DNA of 50,424 bases from Cryomorphaceae bacterium (lineage in GTDB: Bacteria; Bacteroidota; Bacteroidia; Flavobacteriales; Flavobacteriaceae). This document shows, one piece after another, positions 30,143 to 41,262 of the stretch (position 1 is its first letter; each line of letters opens with the position of its first letter). The DNA is taken from the NCBI GenBank assembly GCA_003331875.1, contig QOQA01000009.1, positions 1 through 50,424 of the forward strand, written 5' to 3'. The position numbers were made by a program, and so were the translations under genes. A model generated the notes under the pieces. That model searched no databases and had not been told where the DNA came from. It worked only from the letters and a program-made list of their open reading frames with translations.

Positions 30143-31144
30143 TTATTTAAATGAAGAAAAGCTTTTCAAGTTTCTTAAATAATAATTTATTAATAATGAA
30201 AAACAATAGTGATAATTATCGATTTTTTTTGACTTAGATCTCTTTTTGATGACAGAAAATAAATTGAACAATAAATAGGAATAGGCTTTTAGAATAGAGA
30301 TGGAGAGTCTAGGTTTGAATTTTAAAAATAAAATTATGGAAATACCAAAGTCAAAGAATATTCTTGAAATCATAACAAATACTAAGTATTTTGATGGTAC
30401 ATTTTTAATTAGCATAAAAAGTGAATTTCTAAAATTCAAATAATATTTTTTAGAGGAATTGTAGTTTAAAGTACCAGCTCCTACGTGATAAACTGTTGAT
30501 TTACCAACACTAATTATTTTATCATTATCATTTTTATTCTTTAATCTCCAACAAAAATCTATTTCTTCCATATGAGAAAAGAAATCAGAATCAAAACCAT
30601 TCAATTCTCTAAATACTTTATTTCTTACAACAAAACAACAGCCAGATGCCCAAAATACTTCTCTAGTAGTATTATAAGTATCACTATTTTCTATATTTTC
30701 TACAATTCTTCCACGGCAAAATGGATAACCAAAAAAATCAATAAACCCCCCAGATGCACCAGCATATTCGTATTTCTTTTTATTATTAAAATCTATGATA
30801 CTGGGTTGAGCAACACTAATTTTTTTATTCTTTTTAAAGACTTCAATTATATCAAGAAATGATTTATTATCTAAAAAAACTGCATCATTATTAAGGAAAA
30901 AAATTAAATCTTCATTGATATCCTTGATCGATTCATTGTATCCGCCAGCATATCCAAAGTTTTTCTTTAATTGAATAATTTTAACATCAGGAAATTTTGT
31001 TTTTACATACTTAACAGAATCATCACTCGAGTTATTATCTATAAGATATATTTTAGCATTGGGAGTATTTTTGATGTTATCTTTTAGGAAAAGTTTTATC
31101 AAATTTAGTCCGTTATAATTTAAAATGGCTACAGCACTAGTCAT
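30143..31144 (-). CDS. Glycosyltransferase family 2
   Basis: A 333-residue GT-A fold protein beginning SAVAILNYNGLNLIKLFL, with YLIDNNSSDDSV and KNFGYAGGYNESI. FFLNNDAVF holds the DxD-like metal site, and SGCCFVVRNKVF, ELNGFDSDFFSHMEEIDFCWRLK and YHVGAGT complete the family 2 pattern. A C-terminal hydrophobic stretch near residue 250 may anchor it to the inner membrane. Such proteins add sugars to lipopolysaccharide, capsule or other glycans; the acceptor is unknown. Its ATG overlaps the stop of the HsdR-N-like gene (ATGA type), so the two are probably coupled. Confidence 0.9.
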   Translation of the reverse strand: MTSAVAILNYNGLNLIKLFLKDNIKNTPNAKIYLIDNNSSDDSVKYVKTKFPDVKIIQLKKNFGYAGGYNESIKDINEDLIFFLNNDAVFLDNKSFLDIIEVFKKNKKISVAQPSIIDFNNKKKYEYAGASGGFIDFFGYPFCRGRIVENIENSDTYNTTREVFWASGCCFVVRNKVFRELNGFDSDFFSHMEEIDFCWRLKNKNDNDKIISVGKSTVYHVGAGTLNYNSSKKYYLNFRNSLFMLIKNVPSKYLVFVMISRIFFDFGISIILFLKFKPRLSISILKAYSYLLFNLFSVIKKRSKSKKIDNYHYCFSLLINYYLRNLKSFSSFK

Positions 31145-31578
31145 AATGACAAATATTTAGGCAAATTATTTATTTGTTCTATGTTTTGAAGGCCGCAATT
31201 GAATGCTATTGTTTTGACACCATTTGTAACCATCAAGTATTTAGCTTTTAGTTTTTTATTATATATTAAAATCTGATCAATCACTTTAGTATTAATTTTA
31301 ATTTTTGATGATTTACATTCAACAAGAATAGCAATATTTCCACGCTTGTTAAACACAATTATATCAAATCTTTTTTTTAGTCCTCTTTCAATTTTAAATT
31401 CTTTTTCACTAGATATATGAGATATTGGTATTTCTAGTTTATCAATTAAAAATTTAATAGTTAATTGCCTAACCTTTTCTTCATCTGTTAATAGAATATA
31501 TTTTTTTCTTATTATATCATAAATATATTTTTTATCTTTTTTTGTAATTATTTTAAAATTAAATTTATTACAATCCAT
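31141..31578 (-). CDS. Small HsdR-N-like (PD-(D/E)xK-type) protein
   Basis: A protein of about 145 residues that resembles the isolated N-terminal nuclease domain of type I restriction R subunits (HSDR_N_2 type). It has LTDEEKVRQLTIKFLIDKL, then RFDIIVFNKRGN, AILVECKSSKIKI (Asp and Glu-x-Lys of the PD-(D/E)xK site), and a C-terminal VTNGVKTIAF. No helicase, methylase or specificity subunit is near, so it is not a restriction system. Its position between holA and a glycosyltransferase recurs, as I recall, in related genomes, suggesting a housekeeping role, but that is memory and not shown here. I use the ATG at 31578 rather than the TTG just before it. Confidence 0.8.
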   Translation of the reverse strand: MDCNKFNFKIITKKDKKYIYDIIRKKYILLTDEEKVRQLTIKFLIDKLEIPISHISSEKEFKIERGLKKRFDIIVFNKRGNIAILVECKSSKIKINTKVIDQILIYNKKLKAKYLMVTNGVKTIAFNCGLQNIEQINNLPKYLSL

Positions 31579-31580
31579 CA

Positions 31581-32582
31581 ATGATTAAAAGTACAAAGGA
31601 TTTTATTCAAGTTTTAAAAAATATTGACAAGAATAATTTAAAACCACTGTATATAGTTAACAGTGAACAATCATATATCATTGACCAATTTGTGGAAAAA
31701 TTTAAGTCAATGATCCCTGATGATCTAAAATCATTTAACCAATTTATTTTTTATGATCATGACTCAATAGCTGAGGATATTATATCAGTCGCTAATAATT
31801 ATCCTCTTGCTGGCGATTTGAAAATAATAATTGTAAAAACAGCTGATAAAATGATTAATAAATTTGAATTATTTCAAAAATTTATAGATAAATCTTCCAA
31901 TCATTGTACAATTTTATTGTGTCTCAATGGTAAAAAAATTGATAAGAGAAAAAAAAAAATTATTGGTTCAGCAATATTAATTGAAGTACAAAAGATTTAC
32001 AACAATCAACTTTCAGATTGGATTATTTATATTGGAAAAATAAATAATTTAAATTTTAACTATGAAATTGTAGAGATTATCAAAGAACGAACAGGTGTTA
32101 ATCTTAGTAAAATTTCTAATGAAATAAAAAAAATTTCTCTCATGAATCATGATGAATTTTCTGAGAAAGAACTTATTTATAGATTCTTTGGAATTAATAA
32201 TGAATACAATATTTTTGAGCTCCAAAAAGAGTTAGGTAATAAAAACTATGATAAGGTATTTAGAATTTCTAAATATTTTTCAGAAAACAGTAAAAAATAT
32301 CCACCACAATTAATTTTTGCATCTCTTCATAATTATTTCTTAAATCTATTTCAAATTAAGTCAAATATAAACCTTAATTACACTGAAATATCTAATCTAA
32401 CTGGTATATATCAACACTTTATTTTAGATGATTTCAAAAAGATTTCAAATAATTTTTCACTTAGGGAAATTGTTAATATTCTAGGTGTTATAAAAACTTA
32501 TGACGCAAAGTCAAAGGGTCTAAAAAAAGATAAATATTATGACTCTGAACTTTTACAATTTATATCGGAAATTAAGAATTAA
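31581..32582 (+). CDS. holA: DNA polymerase III delta subunit
   Basis: A 333-residue protein with the HolA layout: FIQVLKNIDKNNLKPLYIVN, IDQFVEKFKSMIP, ANNYPLAGDLKIIIVKTADK in domain 1, and NEYNIFELQKELGNKNYDKVF in domain 3. The Walker A residues are degenerate, as is normal for delta, since it acts as the wrench that opens the clamp and not as an ATPase. The ATG sits 2 bp from the start of the divergent HsdR-N-like gene. The 3' end overlaps the E1 dehydrogenase gene by 11 bp. Confidence 0.9.
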   Translation: MIKSTKDFIQVLKNIDKNNLKPLYIVNSEQSYIIDQFVEKFKSMIPDDLKSFNQFIFYDHDSIAEDIISVANNYPLAGDLKIIIVKTADKMINKFELFQKFIDKSSNHCTILLCLNGKKIDKRKKKIIGSAILIEVQKIYNNQLSDWIIYIGKINNLNFNYEIVEIIKERTGVNLSKISNEIKKISLMNHDEFSEKELIYRFFGINNEYNIFELQKELGNKNYDKVFRISKYFSENSKKYPPQLIFASLHNYFLNLFQIKSNINLNYTEISNLTGIYQHFILDDFKKISNNFSLREIVNILGVIKTYDAKSKGLKKDKYYDSELLQFISEIKN

Positions 32583-34974
32583 AATTTAGTGGATATTTAT
32601 TAGGATCATATTCGTTCATAACATTATAAATCCCCTCAAAAATATCATCCAATGATGGTTTAGAAAAATAATCACCGTCAGTTCCGTAGGGTGGACGATG
32701 ATCTTTTGCTGTTATTGTTATTGGTTTTGAATCTAAGAATTCGTATCCATTTCGGTCTTCAATAATTTTCTTTAGAATGAATGCAGAAGCTCCTCCACCA
32801 AAGTCTTCGTCGATAACAATAAGTTTATTTGTTTTTTTTAAGCTTAATATAATTTGATTATCAATATCAAAGGGAATTAGTGTTTGTACATCAATTAAAT
32901 CAATTGAAATTCCATGATTTTTCAATTCGTGACAAGCTTTTTCTACAATTTTTAATGTAGATCCATATGAGACAACAGTGATATCATCACCATTTTGAAT
33001 ATAATTAATTATTCCAAGTGGAACCTTAAATTCACCAATATTACTAGGCATTTTTTCTTTTAGTCTATAAGAGTTTAAAGGTTCAATAATTAAACTTGGT
33101 TCATTACATTCAAGTAGCGTGTTGTACATACCTGCAGCCTGTGTCATATTTCTCGGAACTAATATTCGAACACCTTTTATTGAATTTAATAACATTCCCA
33201 TTGGTGAACCAGAGTGCCAAATACCCTCTAGTCTATGACCTCTAGTTCTAATGATTAGTGGGGAGATCTGTCTTCCAAGTGTTCTGTAGGTCATAGTAGC
33301 TAAGTCGTCAGATATTATTTGAAGTGCAAAAATCAAATAGTCTAAATATTGTATTTCTGCGATTGGACGGAAACCTCTCATTGCCAATCCAATTCCCTCT
33401 CCTATAATAGAAGCTTCTCTAATTCCTCTGTCATCAACTCTGTTTTTACTCCATTTTTTTTGCAATCCCTCTAGCCCTTGATTTACGTCTCCAATTTTAC
33501 CTGAATCTTCTCCAAAAAAGATTAAATTAGGGTTTTTAGAGAGTAAATAGTCAAAGTTATTTCTTAGTATTAATCTCCCATCTACAAGTTTAGAATCACT
33601 ATCATATTCAGCTGCCACTTCAGAAACACTTTTATAATTATTTTCATGCTGATTATAAAGATGTGAGCTGTACAATGGTTGGCTATTTTTTTTATAATCG
33701 GAAACCCAATTATTAATTTTTTTAAAAAAATCAGTACTTTTTTCTATTCTAAGAGCTTTTCTAGCTGAACTCATAATATCTTTTCTTCCCAAATCTTTTA
33801 CTCTTAGTAGTGAATTAGCAATTTCTGCTAATCCCTGAGACTTATGATCTTTTAGTACCGACTTTAATAGCCTAATAAAAGAATCTCTTTCTACAAGAAT
33901 ATCCTTCTGAAAATCATCCCATGCTATTCTTTTTTCGGATTTTACAAATTCAAAAGATTCTTTTTCAATTTTTTCAATATTTTTTAAATCTGTAAGATTA
34001 TTGTCAAGAATCCATTCCCTCATTTTTCTGTTACAATCATTTTCAAACTCCCACTTTAACCTTGATTTATTTTTATATCTTTCATGGGATCCAGAGGTAG
34101 AGTGACCAATTGGTTGGGTTAGGTTTTTAACATGTATAAGGATTGGGATGTGGTTTTTTCTACACAAATTACTACAATGCTCATAAATTTGAATCAGAGA
34201 TTGATAATCCCATCCATCTACTGTGAAAATTTCAAAACCTTTATTGATTTTATCCCTTTTAAATCCCTGTAAAGCTTTAGAAATACTAGATTTTGTTGTT
34301 TGATAGGAATTGTCAACTGAAATTCCATATTCATCATCCCAAACACTTATAATCATGGGAACTTGATGAACTCCAGCTGCATTAAAAACTTCAAAAAATG
34401 GGCCTTCACTTGTGCTTGCGTTACCAATAGTTCCCCAAGCAACTTCATTTCCATCATTTGAAAAGTTTTTAGAAACAAAACTTCCCTCACGATATAATTT
34501 AGATGCCATGGATAAACCAAGCAATCTTGGCATTTGTCCGGAAGTAGGAGAGATGTCCGCTGAAGAATTATATTTGTTTGTTGTATCAATAAAGTTGCCT
34601 TTTTCATCAAGATAGTTTGTCATAAAATGAGACCCCATTTGTCTTCCTCCTGACATAGGCTCTTTATTTAGATTAGTATTTCCATAGAGTGCAGAAAATA
34701 TTTGTTGAACTGTAATTTCATTTAAAGCCAACATAAATGTTTGGTCTCTGTAATATCCAGATCTATGATCACCCTTTTTAAAAGCCTTAGCCATTGCAAT
34801 CTGAGGTAACTCTTTGCCATCTCCAAATATTCCAAATTTAGCTTTCCCACCTAACACTTCTTTTCTTCCTAGAAGACTGGTGTCCCTACTTATTACAATT
34901 GTCTTGTAATCATTTAAAATTTCTTTTTTAAAATCATTATAAGTAATTGATTTTGTCAGGGATTTATGTTTCAT
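32572..34974 (-). CDS. 2-oxoacid dehydrogenase E1, fused alpha and beta subunits
   Basis: An 800-residue protein in which an E1 alpha-like N-terminal half (FKKGDHRSGYYRDQTFML, GGRQMGSHF, TIGNASTSEG, SVWDDEYGIS) joins an E1 beta-like C-terminal half. The latter has FFGEDSGKIGDVNQGLEGLQ, REASIIGEGIGLAMRGFRP, VSYGSTL, IDLIDVQTLIPFD, and AKDHRPPYGTDGDYFSKPS. It is the E1 of a branched-chain or related 2-oxoacid dehydrogenase complex and uses TPP. Bacteroidetes commonly carry such a fused E1. Its exact substrate, branched-chain oxoacid or 2-oxoglutarate/pyruvate, is not decided, although the ilv operon makes branched-chain substrates plausible. It is 28 bp after the peptidase-like gene; no terminator is seen between them. 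Confidence 0.9.
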   Translation of the reverse strand: MKHKSLTKSITYNDFKKEILNDYKTIVISRDTSLLGRKEVLGGKAKFGIFGDGKELPQIAMAKAFKKGDHRSGYYRDQTFMLALNEITVQQIFSALYGNTNLNKEPMSGGRQMGSHFMTNYLDEKGNFIDTTNKYNSSADISPTSGQMPRLLGLSMASKLYREGSFVSKNFSNDGNEVAWGTIGNASTSEGPFFEVFNAAGVHQVPMIISVWDDEYGISVDNSYQTTKSSISKALQGFKRDKINKGFEIFTVDGWDYQSLIQIYEHCSNLCRKNHIPILIHVKNLTQPIGHSTSGSHERYKNKSRLKWEFENDCNRKMREWILDNNLTDLKNIEKIEKESFEFVKSEKRIAWDDFQKDILVERDSFIRLLKSVLKDHKSQGLAEIANSLLRVKDLGRKDIMSSARKALRIEKSTDFFKKINNWVSDYKKNSQPLYSSHLYNQHENNYKSVSEVAAEYDSDSKLVDGRLILRNNFDYLLSKNPNLIFFGEDSGKIGDVNQGLEGLQKKWSKNRVDDRGIREASIIGEGIGLAMRGFRPIAEIQYLDYLIFALQIISDDLATMTYRTLGRQISPLIIRTRGHRLEGIWHSGSPMGMLLNSIKGVRILVPRNMTQAAGMYNTLLECNEPSLIIEPLNSYRLKEKMPSNIGEFKVPLGIINYIQNGDDITVVSYGSTLKIVEKACHELKNHGISIDLIDVQTLIPFDIDNQIILSLKKTNKLIVIDEDFGGGASAFILKKIIEDRNGYEFLDSKPITITAKDHRPPYGTDGDYFSKPSLDDIFEGIYNVMNEYDPNKYPLNFNS

Positions 34975-35002: not shown

Positions 35003-37759
35003 TTAAAACCATCTGCGAGTAAATAATTTAGATAAATTTTGGCTATCAAAAGTCAGAACAAACCTTATATTATTTAAGTAATTTGATTGAGTAGGATGGA
35101 AGCCATTTGATGATTGTATTGGAAAATAGAGTTCTAAATAATCCTCTACAAAATTTAAACGAATTCCCAGATCATATCCATTTAGTATGTTCATGTTTTT
35201 ATTTTTAAAAAGACCGAAATCCCCATAAAACTCAACCCATTTCCAAATTGTTAAACCAGTATTAAAAACAATAATAAAGTCATCAGCGTAATCAGGATTA
35301 ATTCTTGATTTAAATGCACCTTCTTGACGTATATATTGCTGTGATAAAAAACCATCAGTTTCAGATCTACCTAAAAGAGAGTTATTTAAAAGAAAATCCG
35401 TTGAATTGTGTATGCTAAAATTAATTTGATTATTTCTAGTTTTATTTTTTATGAACTTTCCTCCAAAAAACCTTATACTAAACTGTCTGTAATCAGAAAA
35501 ATAATTTCTGTAATAAAGTGTAATAGAGTTTTTGATAAAATCTCTATTGAGCTGAAAGTTAAAATTTAAAAATTTTGTTTTTTTTCCTCCGGGATTTGCT
35601 TTTGTAAAACTCAAACTGTAGATATTATTTATTTTTTCATTTTGATTAGTGTCAGGTCTATCAATGAAATAATATTTAAATCTGAGGCTAGTGTATTTAT
35701 TTGATTTTAGATCAGGATCTTTTTTGATATAAGAAATAGAGGGGGTTAGTTTTTTGTACATATAATTTTCATTGTAGTGAAAGCTAGATGCTGATAAGTA
35801 ATAGTTAATTATAATATTTTTTTTTATGAAAGCCCTGTAATTAAAACTTAATGCACCAGCTAATTTATTTTTTTTTAAACCATAGTATGGTGAGATTATA
35901 TAAGTGAAAGGTTTAGATACAGGAGATCTATTGGTTAATGTAAAACCTGGTAATAAACCATCATAAAAATTATATCCAAATTGTGGCCTGTAGTATATAT
36001 GATTTTCCGTTCTTGATTCAATGTCAGTGAAAAAACGAGGCTTTAATTTTTTTCTAGACGAATTGAAGTTTAAATGATTGTTCTTTAAATTTATATCAAC
36101 AAATATATTTTCAGGATCAACAGTTATTTTCTTAAGATTATTTAGATAATTATGTTCACTTATATAAGTGTCCTTTAAATGAACAATTTCTGTCGTTATG
36201 TTATTATTGATGAATTCTTTTCTTATTGGTATCGGGACATTTATTTCATTTTTTGATTTTTCAGATACTAATATTTTTTTTTGTTTTAGAGTAATTTTAT
36301 AATCTAGAGGTTCTGTCATATTTATATAGTCGTTAAAAAACCAATTTAAATCCTTCTTTGAAGCTGATTTAAATATATTTTTTAAATCTTCAACATCATC
36401 AAATATTATTTTATCATTAATTAAAGTCTTAAATGTTTGATCTACTAAATTTTCATCATATAGTTCTAGTAATTTAAATGCATTTAATGATTTTGATGGA
36501 TTTACTAATCTGTAATTAATTCGCGTTAAATTTTGAGCTTCTTCTGATATTCTTTGATCAAGCCTTAATCTTTTAACATAAAGTTGAGAGATATTGAAAA
36601 TATCATTAATTTTTTGTTTTGATATTTCATGATTTCTGACAAAAAAATTATTTGATAAAGCCCCAAATATTTTAAGGTTTAAATTATAATCCAAAATATA
36701 TTTCTCTAGGTAATAGAACTCCATCCCAGATCTTACCCAAAAATATTTTCTGTCACTAAAACCTATAGATGATCTTATAAAATCCCTTAATACTATCTTA
36801 AACAGATTAATTTCATTTATGGAATTTTGATCAAAAACCTTTAAATAGGTTGGTAAATCCGAAAATGGATAAAGTGAATATTCTTTAAAATACTTTTTAG
36901 TTAATAATAACTTAGATTTTGAATAATTATTGAAATTATTGGAAAGGAAAGTATGAATTCTTTCTAAACTTTCGCTTTTAATAGACAAAATTTTCTTTTC
37001 ATTTGTAATAATATCCAAAAATTCATTATCAATTTCTTCAAATTCATTGTTCATAAAAATAAAAAAAGTGAGGTTTTTTATTTTATTTGTTTCAAAGCTT
37101 ATCTTTTTTAGTTTATTAATTTCACTTTCAGAATGATTAACATTACAATGGAAAGTATAATTTGAGGGTATTTCAATATTCATTGATATATGATCTTCTG
37201 TATTAAATTGATCATCAAGATTTAAGTTGGATTCTGCTACACTTATATTCTTTATAATTGGAGTAACCCTAAGTAAAAAATTTTTAATTGTATAGCTACC
37301 ATTATTTACATACCCATAATCAAACACTTTAGATCTTGGAAAAACTAAAGTGTAGCTAACATTAATTTCAATTTTTTGATTTGATTTTAATTCCTCAGAA
37401 AAAAAAATTTTTATCAAATCGGGTGAGCCTTGAATTCTATTCCAATTTAATTCATTAGAACCTGAACTTATTTTATTGACTTTTGTTAAGCCTCTTTTTT
37501 TCTTTTCTGATTTCACTAATGACAAGTTATATTCATCATAAAGTTTTTTTGATAAAGGTGTATCACTTTGAGAATATGAATTATTCCAATCGTAAACAAT
37601 CAAATGAGTAATTCCTTGTTTAGATTTATTATGGAATATGATTTTTTGATCAATATCCATAAAGTTTTCCTCAGGGTTAAAAGAAGATTGAATTTTATAT
37701 ATACTTTGCGTAAAAACGTTGTTTGAATAAAGTATAAGCAGTAAGAATAAAAAACGCAA
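35003..37759 (-). CDS. Gluzincin (M1)-peptidase-like protein with C-terminal outer-membrane barrel
   Basis: A 918-residue protein with an N-terminal signal peptide (RFLFLLLILYSNNVFT). An immunoglobulin-like/M1-type N-terminal region (to about residue 250) and a helical peptidase-like domain (about 260-490) follow. From about residue 590 to the end it is rich in alternating aromatic and polar strands, ending RRWF, as outer-membrane barrels do. The place of the HExxH zinc motif reads RDFIR (residues 325-329) and the downstream acid ligand is also missing (WVRSGMEFY), so it is probably not an active zinc peptidase. The start is a TTG at 37759; an in-frame stop precedes it by one codon. It follows the LOG gene by 3 bp. 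Confidence 0.75.
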   Translation of the reverse strand: MRFLFLLLILYSNNVFTQSIYKIQSSFNPEENFMDIDQKIIFHNKSKQGITHLIVYDWNNSYSQSDTPLSKKLYDEYNLSLVKSEKKKRGLTKVNKISSGSNELNWNRIQGSPDLIKIFFSEELKSNQKIEINVSYTLVFPRSKVFDYGYVNNGSYTIKNFLLRVTPIIKNISVAESNLNLDDQFNTEDHISMNIEIPSNYTFHCNVNHSESEINKLKKISFETNKIKNLTFFIFMNNEFEEIDNEFLDIITNEKKILSIKSESLERIHTFLSNNFNNYSKSKLLLTKKYFKEYSLYPFSDLPTYLKVFDQNSINEINLFKIVLRDFIRSSIGFSDRKYFWVRSGMEFYYLEKYILDYNLNLKIFGALSNNFFVRNHEISKQKINDIFNISQLYVKRLRLDQRISEEAQNLTRINYRLVNPSKSLNAFKLLELYDENLVDQTFKTLINDKIIFDDVEDLKNIFKSASKKDLNWFFNDYINMTEPLDYKITLKQKKILVSEKSKNEINVPIPIRKEFINNNITTEIVHLKDTYISEHNYLNNLKKITVDPENIFVDINLKNNHLNFNSSRKKLKPRFFTDIESRTENHIYYRPQFGYNFYDGLLPGFTLTNRSPVSKPFTYIISPYYGLKKNKLAGALSFNYRAFIKKNIIINYYLSASSFHYNENYMYKKLTPSISYIKKDPDLKSNKYTSLRFKYYFIDRPDTNQNEKINNIYSLSFTKANPGGKKTKFLNFNFQLNRDFIKNSITLYYRNYFSDYRQFSIRFFGGKFIKNKTRNNQINFSIHNSTDFLLNNSLLGRSETDGFLSQQYIRQEGAFKSRINPDYADDFIIVFNTGLTIWKWVEFYGDFGLFKNKNMNILNGYDLGIRLNFVEDYLELYFPIQSSNGFHPTQSNYLNNIRFVLTFDSQNLSKLFTRRWF

Positions 37760-37762
37760 ACC

Positions 37763-38437
37763 TTAAAAATTTGGAGAGAAACTTTTTTTACTATAAAACT
37801 TATTCAAAATATCTGTAATTTCATCTTCTGAATCAACTAATTCAAATAAAAACATTTCATCGGAGGAAATATTTTTAAAATCATTACATACTTTATTTTT
37901 TAACCAGTCTATACATCCAGCCCAAAAATCAGTACCAACTAAAATAACAGGGAATTTTTGAATTTTTTTTGTTTGAATAAGTGTTATTGCTTCAAATAGT
38001 TCATCAAGAGTTCCAAATCCACCTGGCATTACGATAAATGCTTGAGCATATCTGACAAACATAACCTTTCTAACAAAAAAATAATCAAAATCAATGAGCT
38101 TGTCTGAATCGATAAAATCATTATGTGTTTGCTCAAAGGGTAAGTCAATGTTTAATCCAACCGAAATGCCTCCTGCTAACTGAGCTCCTTTGTTTGCTGC
38201 TTCCATAATTCCGGGACCACCTCCAGTTATCACACCTAACCCCATATTAACAATTTTCTTTGCAATTTTTACTGTTTTTTTATAGTATATATCATTTTTT
38301 TTAGTTCTTGCTGATCCAAATATAGAAACACAAGGACCTAGCTCAGATAATTTTTCATAACCCTCAACGAGTTCACCCATAATTTTAAATACAGACCATG
38401 AGTCATTTGATTTTTCTATCCAATTATCTTTATTCAT
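37763..38437 (-). CDS. LOG-family protein (TIGR00730; cytokinin riboside monophosphate phosphoribohydrolase-like)
   Basis: A 224-residue Rossmann-like protein with VSIFGSARTKKND, ITGGGPGIMEAANKGA and the diagnostic VMPGGFGTLDELFEAITLIQ. By family it hydrolyses nucleoside 5'-monophosphates to base and ribose-5-phosphate; the bacterial role is probably nucleotide salvage. It starts on the last base of the uvrA stop codon (TAATG) and is followed 3 bp later by the peptidase-barrel gene, so it probably belongs to the uvrA transcript. Confidence 0.9.
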   Translation of the reverse strand: MNKDNWIEKSNDSWSVFKIMGELVEGYEKLSELGPCVSIFGSARTKKNDIYYKKTVKIAKKIVNMGLGVITGGGPGIMEAANKGAQLAGGISVGLNIDLPFEQTHNDFIDSDKLIDFDYFFVRKVMFVRYAQAFIVMPGGFGTLDELFEAITLIQTKKIQKFPVILVGTDFWAGCIDWLKNKVCNDFKNISSDEMFLFELVDSEDEITDILNKFYSKKSFSPNF

Positions 38438-41262
38438 TAAGTTAAATTTAACTCCTTTTTGAATATGTTTGATGTTGGTGTGTCTCCATTTTTCAACATT
38501 TCAGTTAAATTCCCTTGAAAAATTATCTCACCACCATTTTTACCACCACCAGGTCCAAGCTCAATAAAATGATCTACAATTTTTAATACATCTGTATTAT
38601 GTTCAATTATAATAATAGTATTGCCTTTTTCTGATAATTTTATAATAATCTTCATTAACTGATCAATATCAGCAAAATGTAAGCCTGTTGTAGGCTCATC
38701 AAATATATATAAGGTTTTACCAGTGTCTCTTTTCGACAGTTCAGTTGCTAACTTAATTCTTTGAGCTTCTCCACCTGAAAGTGTAGTAGATTGCTGACCT
38801 AGCCTAATGTATCCAAGCCCAACTTCGATTAGAACTTTGAGTTTTGATAATATTTTGGGATAATTTTTAAAAACAACTGCAGAATCGGATATTGTCATAC
38901 TCAAAATATCTGAAATAGAATAGTTGTTTAGCTTTACTGATAAGGTTTCTTTGTTAAATCTTTTTCCATTACAAACCTCGCATTCTACGTATATATCAGG
39001 TAAAAAATTCATTTCTATTTTTTTCATTCCAGCGCCCTGACATTCTTCGCATCTACCACCCTTAACATTAAAGCTAAATCTACCGGCTTTATATCCTCTT
39101 ATCTTGGATTCAGGTAACTTTGCAAACATTTCCCTAATAAGTCCGTACAAACCAGTATAAGTTGCAGGATTGCTTCTTGGCGTCCTACCAATTGGAGATT
39201 GATTAATTTGTATTACTTTATCGATATTTTTTATTCCACTAATATCTGAAAATGGTAAGTTATCAATTGTTGAATTATAAAAAACGCTACTTAATATTGG
39301 ATATAATGTTTTATTAATTAATGATGATTTACCACTTCCTGATAAGCCACATACACCTACAATTGTTCCTAAAGGAATGGATAGATCGATATTTTTAAGA
39401 TTATTCCCTGAACAACCTGACAGAACTAGTTTTTTAGCAGTTTTATTTTTATTAAAATTAGACCTTAATATTTCCTCTTTCTCAAATAGGTAATCTGATG
39501 TAATTGATTTTATATTTTTTATATCATTTGTTTTTCCATTAAATACAACCTCGCCACCTTTTTCACCTGCACCTGGACCTAAGTCAATTAAGTGATCTGA
39601 TTGTAACATTATTTCTCTGTCATGCTCAACTACAATTACTGTATTTCCAAGATCTCTTAATTTTTTTAATGATTTGATTAGTTTTAGATTATCTATTTGG
39701 TGTAAACCTATTGAAGGTTCATCTAAAATATACAAAACATCTTGTAACTGAGAACCAATTTGTGTTGCGAGCCTGATTCTTTGAGACTCTCCTCCAGAAA
39801 GTGATCTGGTTTCTCTACCAATTGAAAGGTAATTTAAACCCACATCCCTAATAAATTCAACTCTTTTTAAAATTTCACTGATAATTTGTTTTGAAATTTT
39901 ATATTTTTTTTTGGATAATTTCATATTTAAACTTTTAATCCAATCATACAACTCATCAAAATCCATTTGACTTATTTTACTAATATCTTTATTATCAATT
40001 TTAAAGTGTTTTATATCTGTTTTTAATCGTGTACCATTGCATTTATCACAAACAATAGTTTTCATAAATTTTTTTGACCAAGTTTTAATTTTTTTACTGT
40101 ACGCATTTGAGTGTTGATTTAAAATAAAATTAATTATACCCTCAAAATCAATTTCATAGTTTCTTGTTAAACCCAATGACTTTGATACTATCTTAAATTT
40201 TTCTTTTCCTCCATTTAAGATTATATCCATAGCCTCTTTAGGAATCTCTTTTATTGGATCTTTTAAGTCAAAATCATATTTATTCGCAATATTTTCTAAC
40301 TGTTTAAATATCCAAGTGCTTTGAAATGAACCTAGCGCTGTAATTCCCCCGCTAAAGATTGATTTAGTTTTATCAGGAATTAATAAATCCATATCAACAA
40401 CATTTTTAACTCCAAGACCAGAGCATGCTTTACACATCCCTTTTGGGGAATTAAAAGAAAAAGAATTAGGTTCAGGTGTTTCAAATGAAACCCCAGTATC
40501 TGCACAAACTAAGTTTTTACTATAATAATAATTGCTATTGCTTTCATCAACAACAAGTATAGAGTTATCTCCTTGAGATAAAGCTAATGAAACAGATTCC
40601 TCAAGTCGTTTTAAACAATTTTCATTGTTATTTATTGAAAGCTTATCAATCATTATTTCAATATCATGAATCTTGTACCTGTCTAATTCCATCCCCTCGA
40701 TGATATTTTGGGTTACATTATCTACTCGAACTTTGGAAAAACCCTGTTTTCTAATATTTAAAAACATATCTCTGTAGTGTCCTTTTCTAGATTTTACAAC
40801 AGGGGAAAAGATAGATATTTTTTGATTTTTAAATTTTGAAAAAATTAATTCAATCATTTGTTCAGTCGAAAAATTAATCATTTTTTTTCCTGTTTTTGGA
40901 CTGTATGCATCCGAAACCCTTGAATACAATAATCTCAAAAAATCATAAATTTCAGTTGTTGTTCCAACAGTGGATCTTGGATTCCTGGTTGTTGTTTTTT
41001 GTTCAATCGCTATTACAGGCGATAGACCATCAATTTTATCAACATCTGGTTTCTTCAAACCACCAATATATTGTCTGGCATATGCAGAGAATGTTTCTAT
41101 ATATCTTCTTTGTGCTTCTGAATATATTGTGTCAAATGCAAGGGATGACTTTCCACTTCCTGAAACGCCAGTAACTACTATGAGCTTATTCCGTGGAATT
41201 TTTAAATCAATATTCTTTAAATTATGAACTCTGCAACCTGTAATTGAAATATATTCTTGCAT
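38437..41262 (-). CDS. uvrA: Excinuclease ABC subunit A
   Basis: A 941-residue protein with two ABC-type ATPase halves. The first has VVTGVSGSGKSSLAFDT and LSGGESQRIRLATQIGS, the second VCGLSGSGKSSLI and LSGGEAQRIKLATELSKR. Four CxxC zinc-finger pairs are visible, for example CKACSGLG, CDKCNGTR, CEECQGAG and CEVCNGKR. It finds damage in nucleotide excision repair and loads UvrB. The ATG at 41262 (MQEYISITGCRVHNLKNIDL) is the standard family start. The 91-bp gap to the divergent mutase gene holds the promoters. It heads a run of four minus genes. Confidence 0.97.
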   Translation of the reverse strand: MQEYISITGCRVHNLKNIDLKIPRNKLIVVTGVSGSGKSSLAFDTIYSEAQRRYIETFSAYARQYIGGLKKPDVDKIDGLSPVIAIEQKTTTRNPRSTVGTTTEIYDFLRLLYSRVSDAYSPKTGKKMINFSTEQMIELIFSKFKNQKISIFSPVVKSRKGHYRDMFLNIRKQGFSKVRVDNVTQNIIEGMELDRYKIHDIEIMIDKLSINNNENCLKRLEESVSLALSQGDNSILVVDESNSNYYYSKNLVCADTGVSFETPEPNSFSFNSPKGMCKACSGLGVKNVVDMDLLIPDKTKSIFSGGITALGSFQSTWIFKQLENIANKYDFDLKDPIKEIPKEAMDIILNGGKEKFKIVSKSLGLTRNYEIDFEGIINFILNQHSNAYSKKIKTWSKKFMKTIVCDKCNGTRLKTDIKHFKIDNKDISKISQMDFDELYDWIKSLNMKLSKKKYKISKQIISEILKRVEFIRDVGLNYLSIGRETRSLSGGESQRIRLATQIGSQLQDVLYILDEPSIGLHQIDNLKLIKSLKKLRDLGNTVIVVEHDREIMLQSDHLIDLGPGAGEKGGEVVFNGKTNDIKNIKSITSDYLFEKEEILRSNFNKNKTAKKLVLSGCSGNNLKNIDLSIPLGTIVGVCGLSGSGKSSLINKTLYPILSSVFYNSTIDNLPFSDISGIKNIDKVIQINQSPIGRTPRSNPATYTGLYGLIREMFAKLPESKIRGYKAGRFSFNVKGGRCEECQGAGMKKIEMNFLPDIYVECEVCNGKRFNKETLSVKLNNYSISDILSMTISDSAVVFKNYPKILSKLKVLIEVGLGYIRLGQQSTTLSGGEAQRIKLATELSKRDTGKTLYIFDEPTTGLHFADIDQLMKIIIKLSEKGNTIIIIEHNTDVLKIVDHFIELGPGGGKNGGEIIFQGNLTEMLKNGDTPTSNIFKKELNLT

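Follow-up and report, generated by a model that had tools for sequence, protein, structure and literature searches.

What use could a bacterium have for a peptidase-like domain that has lost its zinc site and is joined to a barrel of the outer membrane? The question is raised by a gene on the minus strand of contig QOQA01000009.1 (assembly GCA_003331875.1, Cryomorphaceae bacterium, family Flavobacteriaceae in the GTDB lineage). Positions 1 to 50,424 of the contig were analysed, and 'the window' denotes this whole stretch of 50,424 nucleotides. The gene is a single open frame of 918 codons, and its product very probably combines an M1-type pseudopeptidase with an Omp85-like barrel. What might such a construct do? 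With a probability of roughly one half, it would act as an insertase or translocase of the Omp85 type, with an M1-fold domain in place of the POTRA domains. The gene and the parts of its product are as follows.

35003..37759, minus strand: whole gene, TTG start, for the 918-residue putative M1-pseudopeptidase with Omp85-like barrel (open reading frame listing; AlphaFold2 model).
37703..37759, minus strand: probable Sec signal peptide, hydrophobic, about residues 1-19, with no Cys and hence no lipobox (sequence inspection; low model confidence at residues 11-15).
36995..37705, minus strand: N-terminal beta domain of the predicted M1 fold, residues 19-255 (secondary structure of the model; M1 structural matches).
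36302..36994, minus strand: helical, catalytic-like domain that has lost its zinc site, residues 256-486 (model; alignment to 30 intact relatives).
36785..36799, minus strand: position of HExxH, here K321-I-V-L-R325 (ungapped alignment with the HExxH...WLDEG stretch of relative L038).
36725..36739, minus strand: position of WxDEG, the third zinc ligand, here W341-V-R-S344-G345 (alignment to intact relatives).
36095..36301, minus strand: C-terminal beta domain of the predicted M1 fold with the first part of the linker, residues 487-555 (model).
35003..36094, minus strand: barrel part, residues 556-918, with 16 predicted strands (586-902), then a helix at the C-terminus (906-914) and FTRRWF as the last residues (full and barrel-only models, Foldseek, VIA).
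35279..35443, minus strand: loop between strands 11 and 12, residues 773-827, at the place of Omp85 loop L6, with conserved D788, R798, G803, S806, Q808, G814, F816 and K817 (alignment and model).
35213..35227, minus strand: Y845-G-D847-F-G849 on strand 13, at the place of the Omp85 (F/G)xDxG signature (model and motif counts; signature as given in the available part of PMC4490367).
35165..35167, minus strand: G865 on strand 14 (Gly in 190/190 full-length relatives).

A direct family search of the protein gave no match in Pfam, NCBIfam or the PDB sequences. The fold of the N-terminal half is a prediction, and as such it is real. The AlphaFold2 model of the full chain has a mean predicted local distance difference test score (pLDDT) of 87.7 and a predicted template modelling score of 0.86; the alignment behind it held 39 family members, four with an intact zinc site. 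The M1 fold fills about residues 19-547. Its top Foldseek matches are the aminopeptidases IRAP and ERAP1 (E 2e-18), VIA aligns 483 residues with IRAP at Z 18.7, and Z to M1 aminopeptidases spans 16.5-18.7 among the 50 matches listed. At the gathering score the window protein has no match to Pfam Peptidase_M1 (PF01433). Intact relatives L038, L041, L058 and L061 score 54-73 bits to it, and L017, itself without HExxH, scores 30.1 bits against a cut-off of 27.7. A preliminary description of this stretch, made from the letters alone, had proposed a peptidase-like domain lacking HExxH, and both the predicted fold and the absence of HExxH anywhere in the 918-residue chain bear this out.

Where was the zinc site? 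In four proteins that belong to other families of the order (L038, L041, L042, L044), the stretch reads HE[IV]GHNWFYG...W[LM]DEG, which aligns without a gap to K321IVLR-DFIRS...W341VRSG. The HExxH-x18-E site is thus lost in the window protein, with K321IVLR325 and S344 at its positions. The preliminary description was right about the loss but had put the motif at RDFIR, which is residues 325-329, four residues too late; the absence of the third ligand it had correctly located in the W341-VRSG stretch, where the Glu of WxDEG corresponds to S344.

The wider comparison covers 191 proteins, excluding duplicates (L045-L047, L052, L057, L082), controls (L118-L186) and loci from the barrel scan (L187-L216); L018 (709 residues, interrupted) is left out of full-length counts. 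The four letters H, E, H and E are all present in 30 proteins and absent as a full set in 161. Intact relatives have an aminopeptidase-type GMEYP motif 20-24 residues before HExxH. Its Met is kept in none of the 160 full-length dead copies (the window reads F299-SDLP303 there), nor is the Tyr 102 residues past the first His (0/160). Lone letters of the site linger among these copies: the second His in 38, the Glu ligand in 10, the first His in two and the Glu of HExxH in two. W341 (156 copies), Q402 (157) and N415 (158) are retained, so that the M1 scaffold is preserved.

Family code f1 is taken as Flavobacteriaceae and the order as Flavobacteriales, after the names borne by relatives in one scan. 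The preliminary description had suggested comparing the metal ligands across homologues, and the result is uniform: the first zinc His is kept in 0/129 Flavobacteriaceae copies and is Lys in all of them (113/113 outside the genus of the window, 16/16 within). The Glu ligand has become Asp in 105 of the 113 and Ser in 16/16 of the window's genus. These counts lean on close relatives: of the 113 rows, 80 are the top-scoring ones among the 586 matches of a single scan, mostly named Flavobacteriaceae with some unplaced bins. A new conserved stretch sits where intact relatives have HExxHNWFYG. Judged by sequence, loss of the zinc site is fixed in the Flavobacteriaceae copies. A Lys-Asp pair may have replaced the zinc, although for the genus of the window itself this form of the idea fails. 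Some proteins have unusual sites. L027 (genome G026, f1, genus g5), from a dead lineage, reads KEFLH...WETEG and keeps three of the four site positions, the first His being Lys, by chance or as a relic. The sites of L039 (DEIVQ...WLIEG) and of f2 proteins (WMIEG) look half-decayed.

Was the site lost or never gained? In a tree of 60 rows, unrooted and made by a quick search without bootstraps after removal of the zinc-site block, intact and dead rows are split by a single change, and all 18 intact rows fall in a single starred clade; this tree has one very long row (L043) and 26 rows of unusual letter make-up. The best-scoring 20 loci from outside the order are all intact (11 other families of the class, 1,005-1,043 residues). 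Within the order, the intact site also occurs in families f4, f6, f11 and f14, and intact L038 (f4) lies about 70 bp upstream of the same E1 dehydrogenase gene as the window's copy. The outside loci, together with L038 at the same E1 locus, argue that the zinc site was lost in place within the order, most simply once. With the root at the midpoint, the tree would call for two losses or one gain. Two loci stand apart. Bin G350 (f7) holds a dead and a more distant intact M1-barrel copy (L113, L114), through a second gene, transfer or contamination of this 260-contig bin. The gene at L018 (G001:C2) is interrupted near residue 705 by a stop, and its match resumes at residue 701 in a second piece, through a sequencing error or a real break.

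What happened to the rest of the protein once the site was gone? Mean pairwise identity was taken over at most 1,500 sampled pairs per group, and as the groups differ in divergence only the order of domains within a group is compared. For the N-terminal beta, catalytic, C-terminal beta and barrel domains in turn, the intact proteins (n=30) give 61, 58, 37 and 36%. The dead groups give 47, 56, 51 and 60% (Flavobacteriaceae, n=113), 41, 47, 33 and 57% (the window's genus, n=16), 24, 33, 47 and 52% (f7, n=10) and 57, 65, 56 and 77% (f5, n=13). By this sequence measure, constraint moved from the peptidase to the barrel in the dead groups. The ratio of nonsynonymous to synonymous substitution (dN/dS) for nine close pairs of the window's genus is 0.13-0.23 over the whole chain; three more pairs were tried, of which two were saturated. 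By domain the nine pairs range over 0.08-0.23 in the barrel, 0.09-0.22 in the catalytic-like domain, 0.15-0.30 in the N-terminal domain and 0.11-0.50 in the small C-terminal beta domain, and the barrel lies below the catalytic-like domain in seven of the nine. Both halves are under purifying selection. Because relatives occur in 47/60 related genomes and dN/dS is this low, the dead M1-barrel protein is more than a product of chance.

The barrel half is consistent with an Omp85 fold. In the model, the last third is a barrel and the chain ends in Phe, as the preliminary description had proposed; the barrel has 16 strands, laid out as 11 strands, a 55-residue loop, five strands (the last short) and then a helix. 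No POTRA domains are seen before the barrel in the model, the M1 fold standing there instead, and the linker between the two is short (about 548-585) and holds a nearly invariant N561. Modelled alone (363 residues, pLDDT 81.8), the barrel finds in Foldseek only Omp85-superfamily entries (Sam50, BamA, TamA, FhaC, CdiB, TOC) among the 50 matches listed, the best 50 of 642 at E <= 10, where chain identity in multi-subunit entries was inferred from length. The best match is 7vku, a Sam50 complex (E 2.1e-7, template modelling score about 0.5). By VIA, 49 of the 50 matches listed are Omp85-superfamily entries, at Z 15.9 to 13.8. The barrel profile has no match among the PDB sequences.

Does the barrel also have the residues expected of an Omp85 protein? 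According to the available part of one paper (PMC4490367), a salt bridge links the Arg of a loop-6 tetrad, (V/I)RG(Y/F), to the Asp in the strand-13 signature (F/G)xDxG; TamA and BamA also have a conserved strand-14 Gly, towards which the Phe bends. In the present family, the loop-6 Arg (R798) is present in 177/190 full-length proteins, [FYW]x[DE]xG on strand 13 in 178/190 (Y845GDFG849 of the window has Tyr for Phe/Gly) and the strand-14 Gly in all 190. The spacing from Arg to the aromatic residue is 43-54, with a mode of 47, in the 177 proteins. The references were 30 Pfam Omp85 proteins from 12 genomes, with the chain end deciding whether one counted as BamA-like or TamL-like; the 22 in which both motifs were found have a spacing of 40-51 (21 proteins) or 74 (one). 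The aromatic motif lies 67-92 residues from the C-terminus in 29 of the 30, and 74 residues from it in the window protein; none of the 14 FadL controls has the motif in that zone. By position, the barrel would thus carry most of the residues of the Omp85 'lid lock'. In profile-profile comparisons, each of the three barrel profiles scores highest with TamL-like barrels (local scores 31.7, 29.8 and 32.5), with reversed controls up to 23.1 and FadL, the negative control, up to 19.6.

Several results weigh against an Omp85 insertase. The family alignments behind both models include intact M1 relatives. The VIA Z of a barrel is a weak discriminator, since one TonB receptor also attains 13.8. The (V/I)RG(Y/F) tetrad was not found in loop 6, where the window has GRSE, and the loop-6 Arg is lost in 13/13 f5 proteins. 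Pfam Omp85 (PF01103) does not match the window protein and is absent from the seven Pfam families matched by 39 barrel rows; the two PF01103 matches of the genome lie elsewhere. The BamA barrel profile scores 18.4-19.6, at control level. Probabilities from hhalign are low even for TamL (5.6-11.5% local, 1.5-25.9% global, all <30%), and the known pair BamA-TamL reaches only 28.3% in the same comparison. The DUF5686 profile scores 24.8, 24.8 and 31.1, below TamL yet close with one profile. Finally, the barrel is missing from many Bacteroidota and would be no universal core factor. With the tetrad absent, the Arg lost in f5, no Pfam match and BamA at control level, the barrel is called Omp85-like and not a canonical Omp85 member. 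Profile evidence for Omp85 is weak, and the assignment draws on the predicted structure and the signature positions. DUF5686 (PF18939) remains a possible cousin: it is matched by one of the 39 barrel rows (E 2.6e-4), with no match for the window protein or in the window's genome, and a [FYW]x[DE]xG-like string lies 45-50 residues from the C-terminus in 7/15 DUF5686 proteins. The DUF5686 barrels (L148-L167) may form a further Omp85-like group. In the f5 proteins (L036, L037, L093-L100, L102-L104), GES or GQS replaces the usual GRS of loop 6.

How might an insertase or translocase of this kind work? Judging from Omp85 topology, the mature N-terminal domain would lie in the periplasm, as expected of a domain before a 16-strand barrel. 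The preliminary description had a dead peptidase displayed from a barrel, with a binding or assembly role at the cell surface or in the periplasm; a periplasmic assembly role fits an Omp85-type barrel, and display at the surface finds no support in the expected topology. The old peptide groove of the M1 domain might receive an extended polypeptide or a partner chaperone and leave it uncut. Candidates for the bound chain are a nascent barrel strand, a surface lipoprotein or the N terminus of a secreted protein. The barrel would take the chain at a lateral seam or through its pore, with loop 6 as the gate. In forms with an intact site, the same M1 domain could also trim the substrate. In the Flavobacteriaceae, cutting would have been given up and a Lys that mostly faces an Asp would have replaced the zinc site, and among the large domains the barrel came to be under the strongest constraint. 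A bolder proposal, rather less likely than not, is that these proteins form an unrecognised Omp85 branch of the Bacteroidota in which an aminopeptidase-fold receiver replaces the POTRAs; lineages with an intact site could trim, and the dead forms would be pure polypeptide receptors that feed an insertase or exporter, for example of surface lipoproteins.

Could the barrel instead be a mere anchor, or a narrow pore of Omp85 descent, with the M1 domain serving in the periplasm as a scaffold or plug for a bound partner (peptidoglycan or another envelope protein), nothing being inserted or moved? The missing tetrad, the loss of Arg in all 13 f5 proteins and a similarity to BamA at control level would suit such a protein. 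A mere anchor, however, has no need of the constraint seen here: in the four dead groups measured, the barrel, including its loop-6, strand-13 and strand-14 positions, is conserved more strongly than the peptidase domains, and we regard this alternative as possible but doubtful. It is unlikely that the M1 domain is a passenger carried to the surface via its own barrel, in the manner of PlpD. PlpD does couple an enzyme domain to an Omp85 barrel and deliver it to the surface (PMC4104836, available part), but it also has a POTRA domain, and none is seen here; the linker is short with its N561 nearly invariant, and a dead passenger maintained across a whole family would be odd. Equally improbable is peptide uptake, whereby an ancestral form admitted peptides and trimmed them in the periplasm and the dead form became a binding-only importer. 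The GMEYP motif of the intact relatives is of the aminopeptidase type, as such a role would have it, but loop 6 keeps the barrels of known Omp85 insertases closed, not open (PMC4490367, available part), and no transporter gene was found among the scanned neighbours. A new zinc-free active site around Lys321, suggested by the Lys in 129/129 Flavobacteriaceae copies and by the conserved stretch in place of HExxHNWFYG, is very improbable, as the neighbours of the Lys vary, the window's genus has Ser in 16/16 where most have Asp, and the GMEYP Met and the Tyr 102 residues past the first His are gone in 160/160 dead copies.

How widely does the insertase candidate occur? Within the window's genus the gene is present in 20 of 23 genomes, its own included, and the three without a match are 57-68% complete. 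It is present in all 14 other Flavobacteriaceae genera sampled. Across the phylum, 51 of 296 genomes have a match to the barrel profile, 50 of these at a single place, and 30 of the 51 are Flavobacteriaceae. Families f30 and f53 have no match in any of their genomes that are shown; the listing omits 225 non-matching genomes. With the full profile, 238/247 genomes of the class are matched, but it also catches M1 peptidases without the barrel. The route by which the Bacteroidota export surface lipoproteins is not known to be solved. A role as general exporter of such lipoproteins was considered and lowered, as the barrel is absent from many genomes, including all of those shown from f30 and f53.

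The gene stands in a cluster of four, all on the minus strand, in the order uvrA, LOG, the 918-codon gene and an E1 dehydrogenase. The other three members are given below.

38437..41262, minus strand: uvrA, first gene of the cluster (Pfam UvrA domains; order conserved).
37763..38437, minus strand: LOG-family gene directly upstream, gap of 3 bp (Pfam Lysine_decarbox, 1.6e-30; order conserved).
32572..34974, minus strand: E1 dehydrogenase alpha/beta fusion, 28 bp downstream (Pfam E1_dh, Transket_pyr and Transketolase_C; order conserved).

Among 80 named loci, LOG lies upstream on the same strand in 78/78 with enough flank (61 within 400 bp), uvrA upstream in 70/72 and E1 downstream in 72/78 (66 within 400 bp). 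The conserved order of uvrA, LOG and barrel, on which the preliminary description had asked for a check, is therefore real. Its proposal of cotranscription with uvrA and LOG fits the spacing and the conserved order, but a promoter and terminator scan gave no more sites than shuffled sequence, and the fourth member, E1, had gone unmentioned. The neighbours belong to other pathways, so the conserved order is better evidence of vertical descent than of function. From the sequences at hand, the TTG of the window's genus is a conserved unusual start. In 13 of the 16 proteins of the genus (L001-L013), TTG is the first or second codon past the preceding stop, right after the LOG gene (37757-37762, minus strand, in the window). 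Inspection of residues 1-25 found no Cys. Elsewhere in the window, a frame of 146 codons (31141-31581, minus strand) holds only an HSDR_N_2 domain of type I restriction enzymes (E 2.1e-28) and lies beside genes for DNA polymerase III delta and a glycosyltransferase.

If the insertase reading is true, every other Flavobacteriaceae genus sampled (14/14) would have a further Omp85-type barrel besides BamA and TamL, one missed by the Pfam Omp85 model. Intact and dead forms of one architecture within one order also provide a natural experiment, in which the role of a peptidase domain that does not cut can be asked. The protein would be a concrete candidate for the unexplained handling of outer-membrane proteins or surface lipoproteins in the Bacteroidota. 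A search of the open-licence part of PubMed Central found no report of a fusion of M1 with Omp85 or with another outer-membrane barrel.

How does the protein compare with known systems? With the M1 aminopeptidases (gluzincins such as ERAP1, IRAP, LTA4H and tricorn factor F3) it has the predicted fold in common; unlike them, it is without HExxH, the third Glu and a GxMEN-type motif, and it is fused to an outer-membrane barrel. Enzyme-fold domains in front of Omp85 barrels have precedents, with patatin or PF00149. The latter we take to be a calcineurin-like phosphoesterase domain, not a peptidase. Heinz and Lithgow (2014) describe Omp85 classes with either domain, the 'Metallo' group being named Omp85-metalloproteases, and some classes with no N-terminal extension ('noNterm'); the word peptidase does not occur in the available text (PMC4104836). 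PlpD-type patatin-Omp85 proteins and the 'Metallo' subfamily thus resemble the window protein in having an enzyme fold N-terminal to the barrel, and they differ in the fold itself, patatin or PF00149 instead of M1; the available text mentions no dead-enzyme lineage among them (PMC4104836). The BAM subunits of Flavobacterium johnsoniae have the same cellular place (PMC12611786, available part). Identity with one of them was considered and rejected: BamG is FadL-like, BamH and BamM are surface lipoproteins and BamP is periplasmic, and none of these is described there as an M1-barrel fusion. TamL of the Bacteroidota, which gave the barrel its highest profile scores, is a POTRA-bearing lipoprotein (PMC12045153, available part), and the window protein is without a signal Cys or POTRA; the window's genome has another Pfam Omp85 gene, classed as TamL-like by its chain end. 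From Omp85 proteins at large (BamA, TamA/TamL, Sam50, FhaC, CdiB) the window protein differs in having no POTRA, no (V/I)RG(Y/F) and no Pfam Omp85 match, and in an extra C-terminal helix past strand 16. It resembles them in its 16 predicted strands, the long loop between strands 11 and 12 with its Arg, the aromatic-x-D/E-x-G of strand 13 and the Gly of strand 14.

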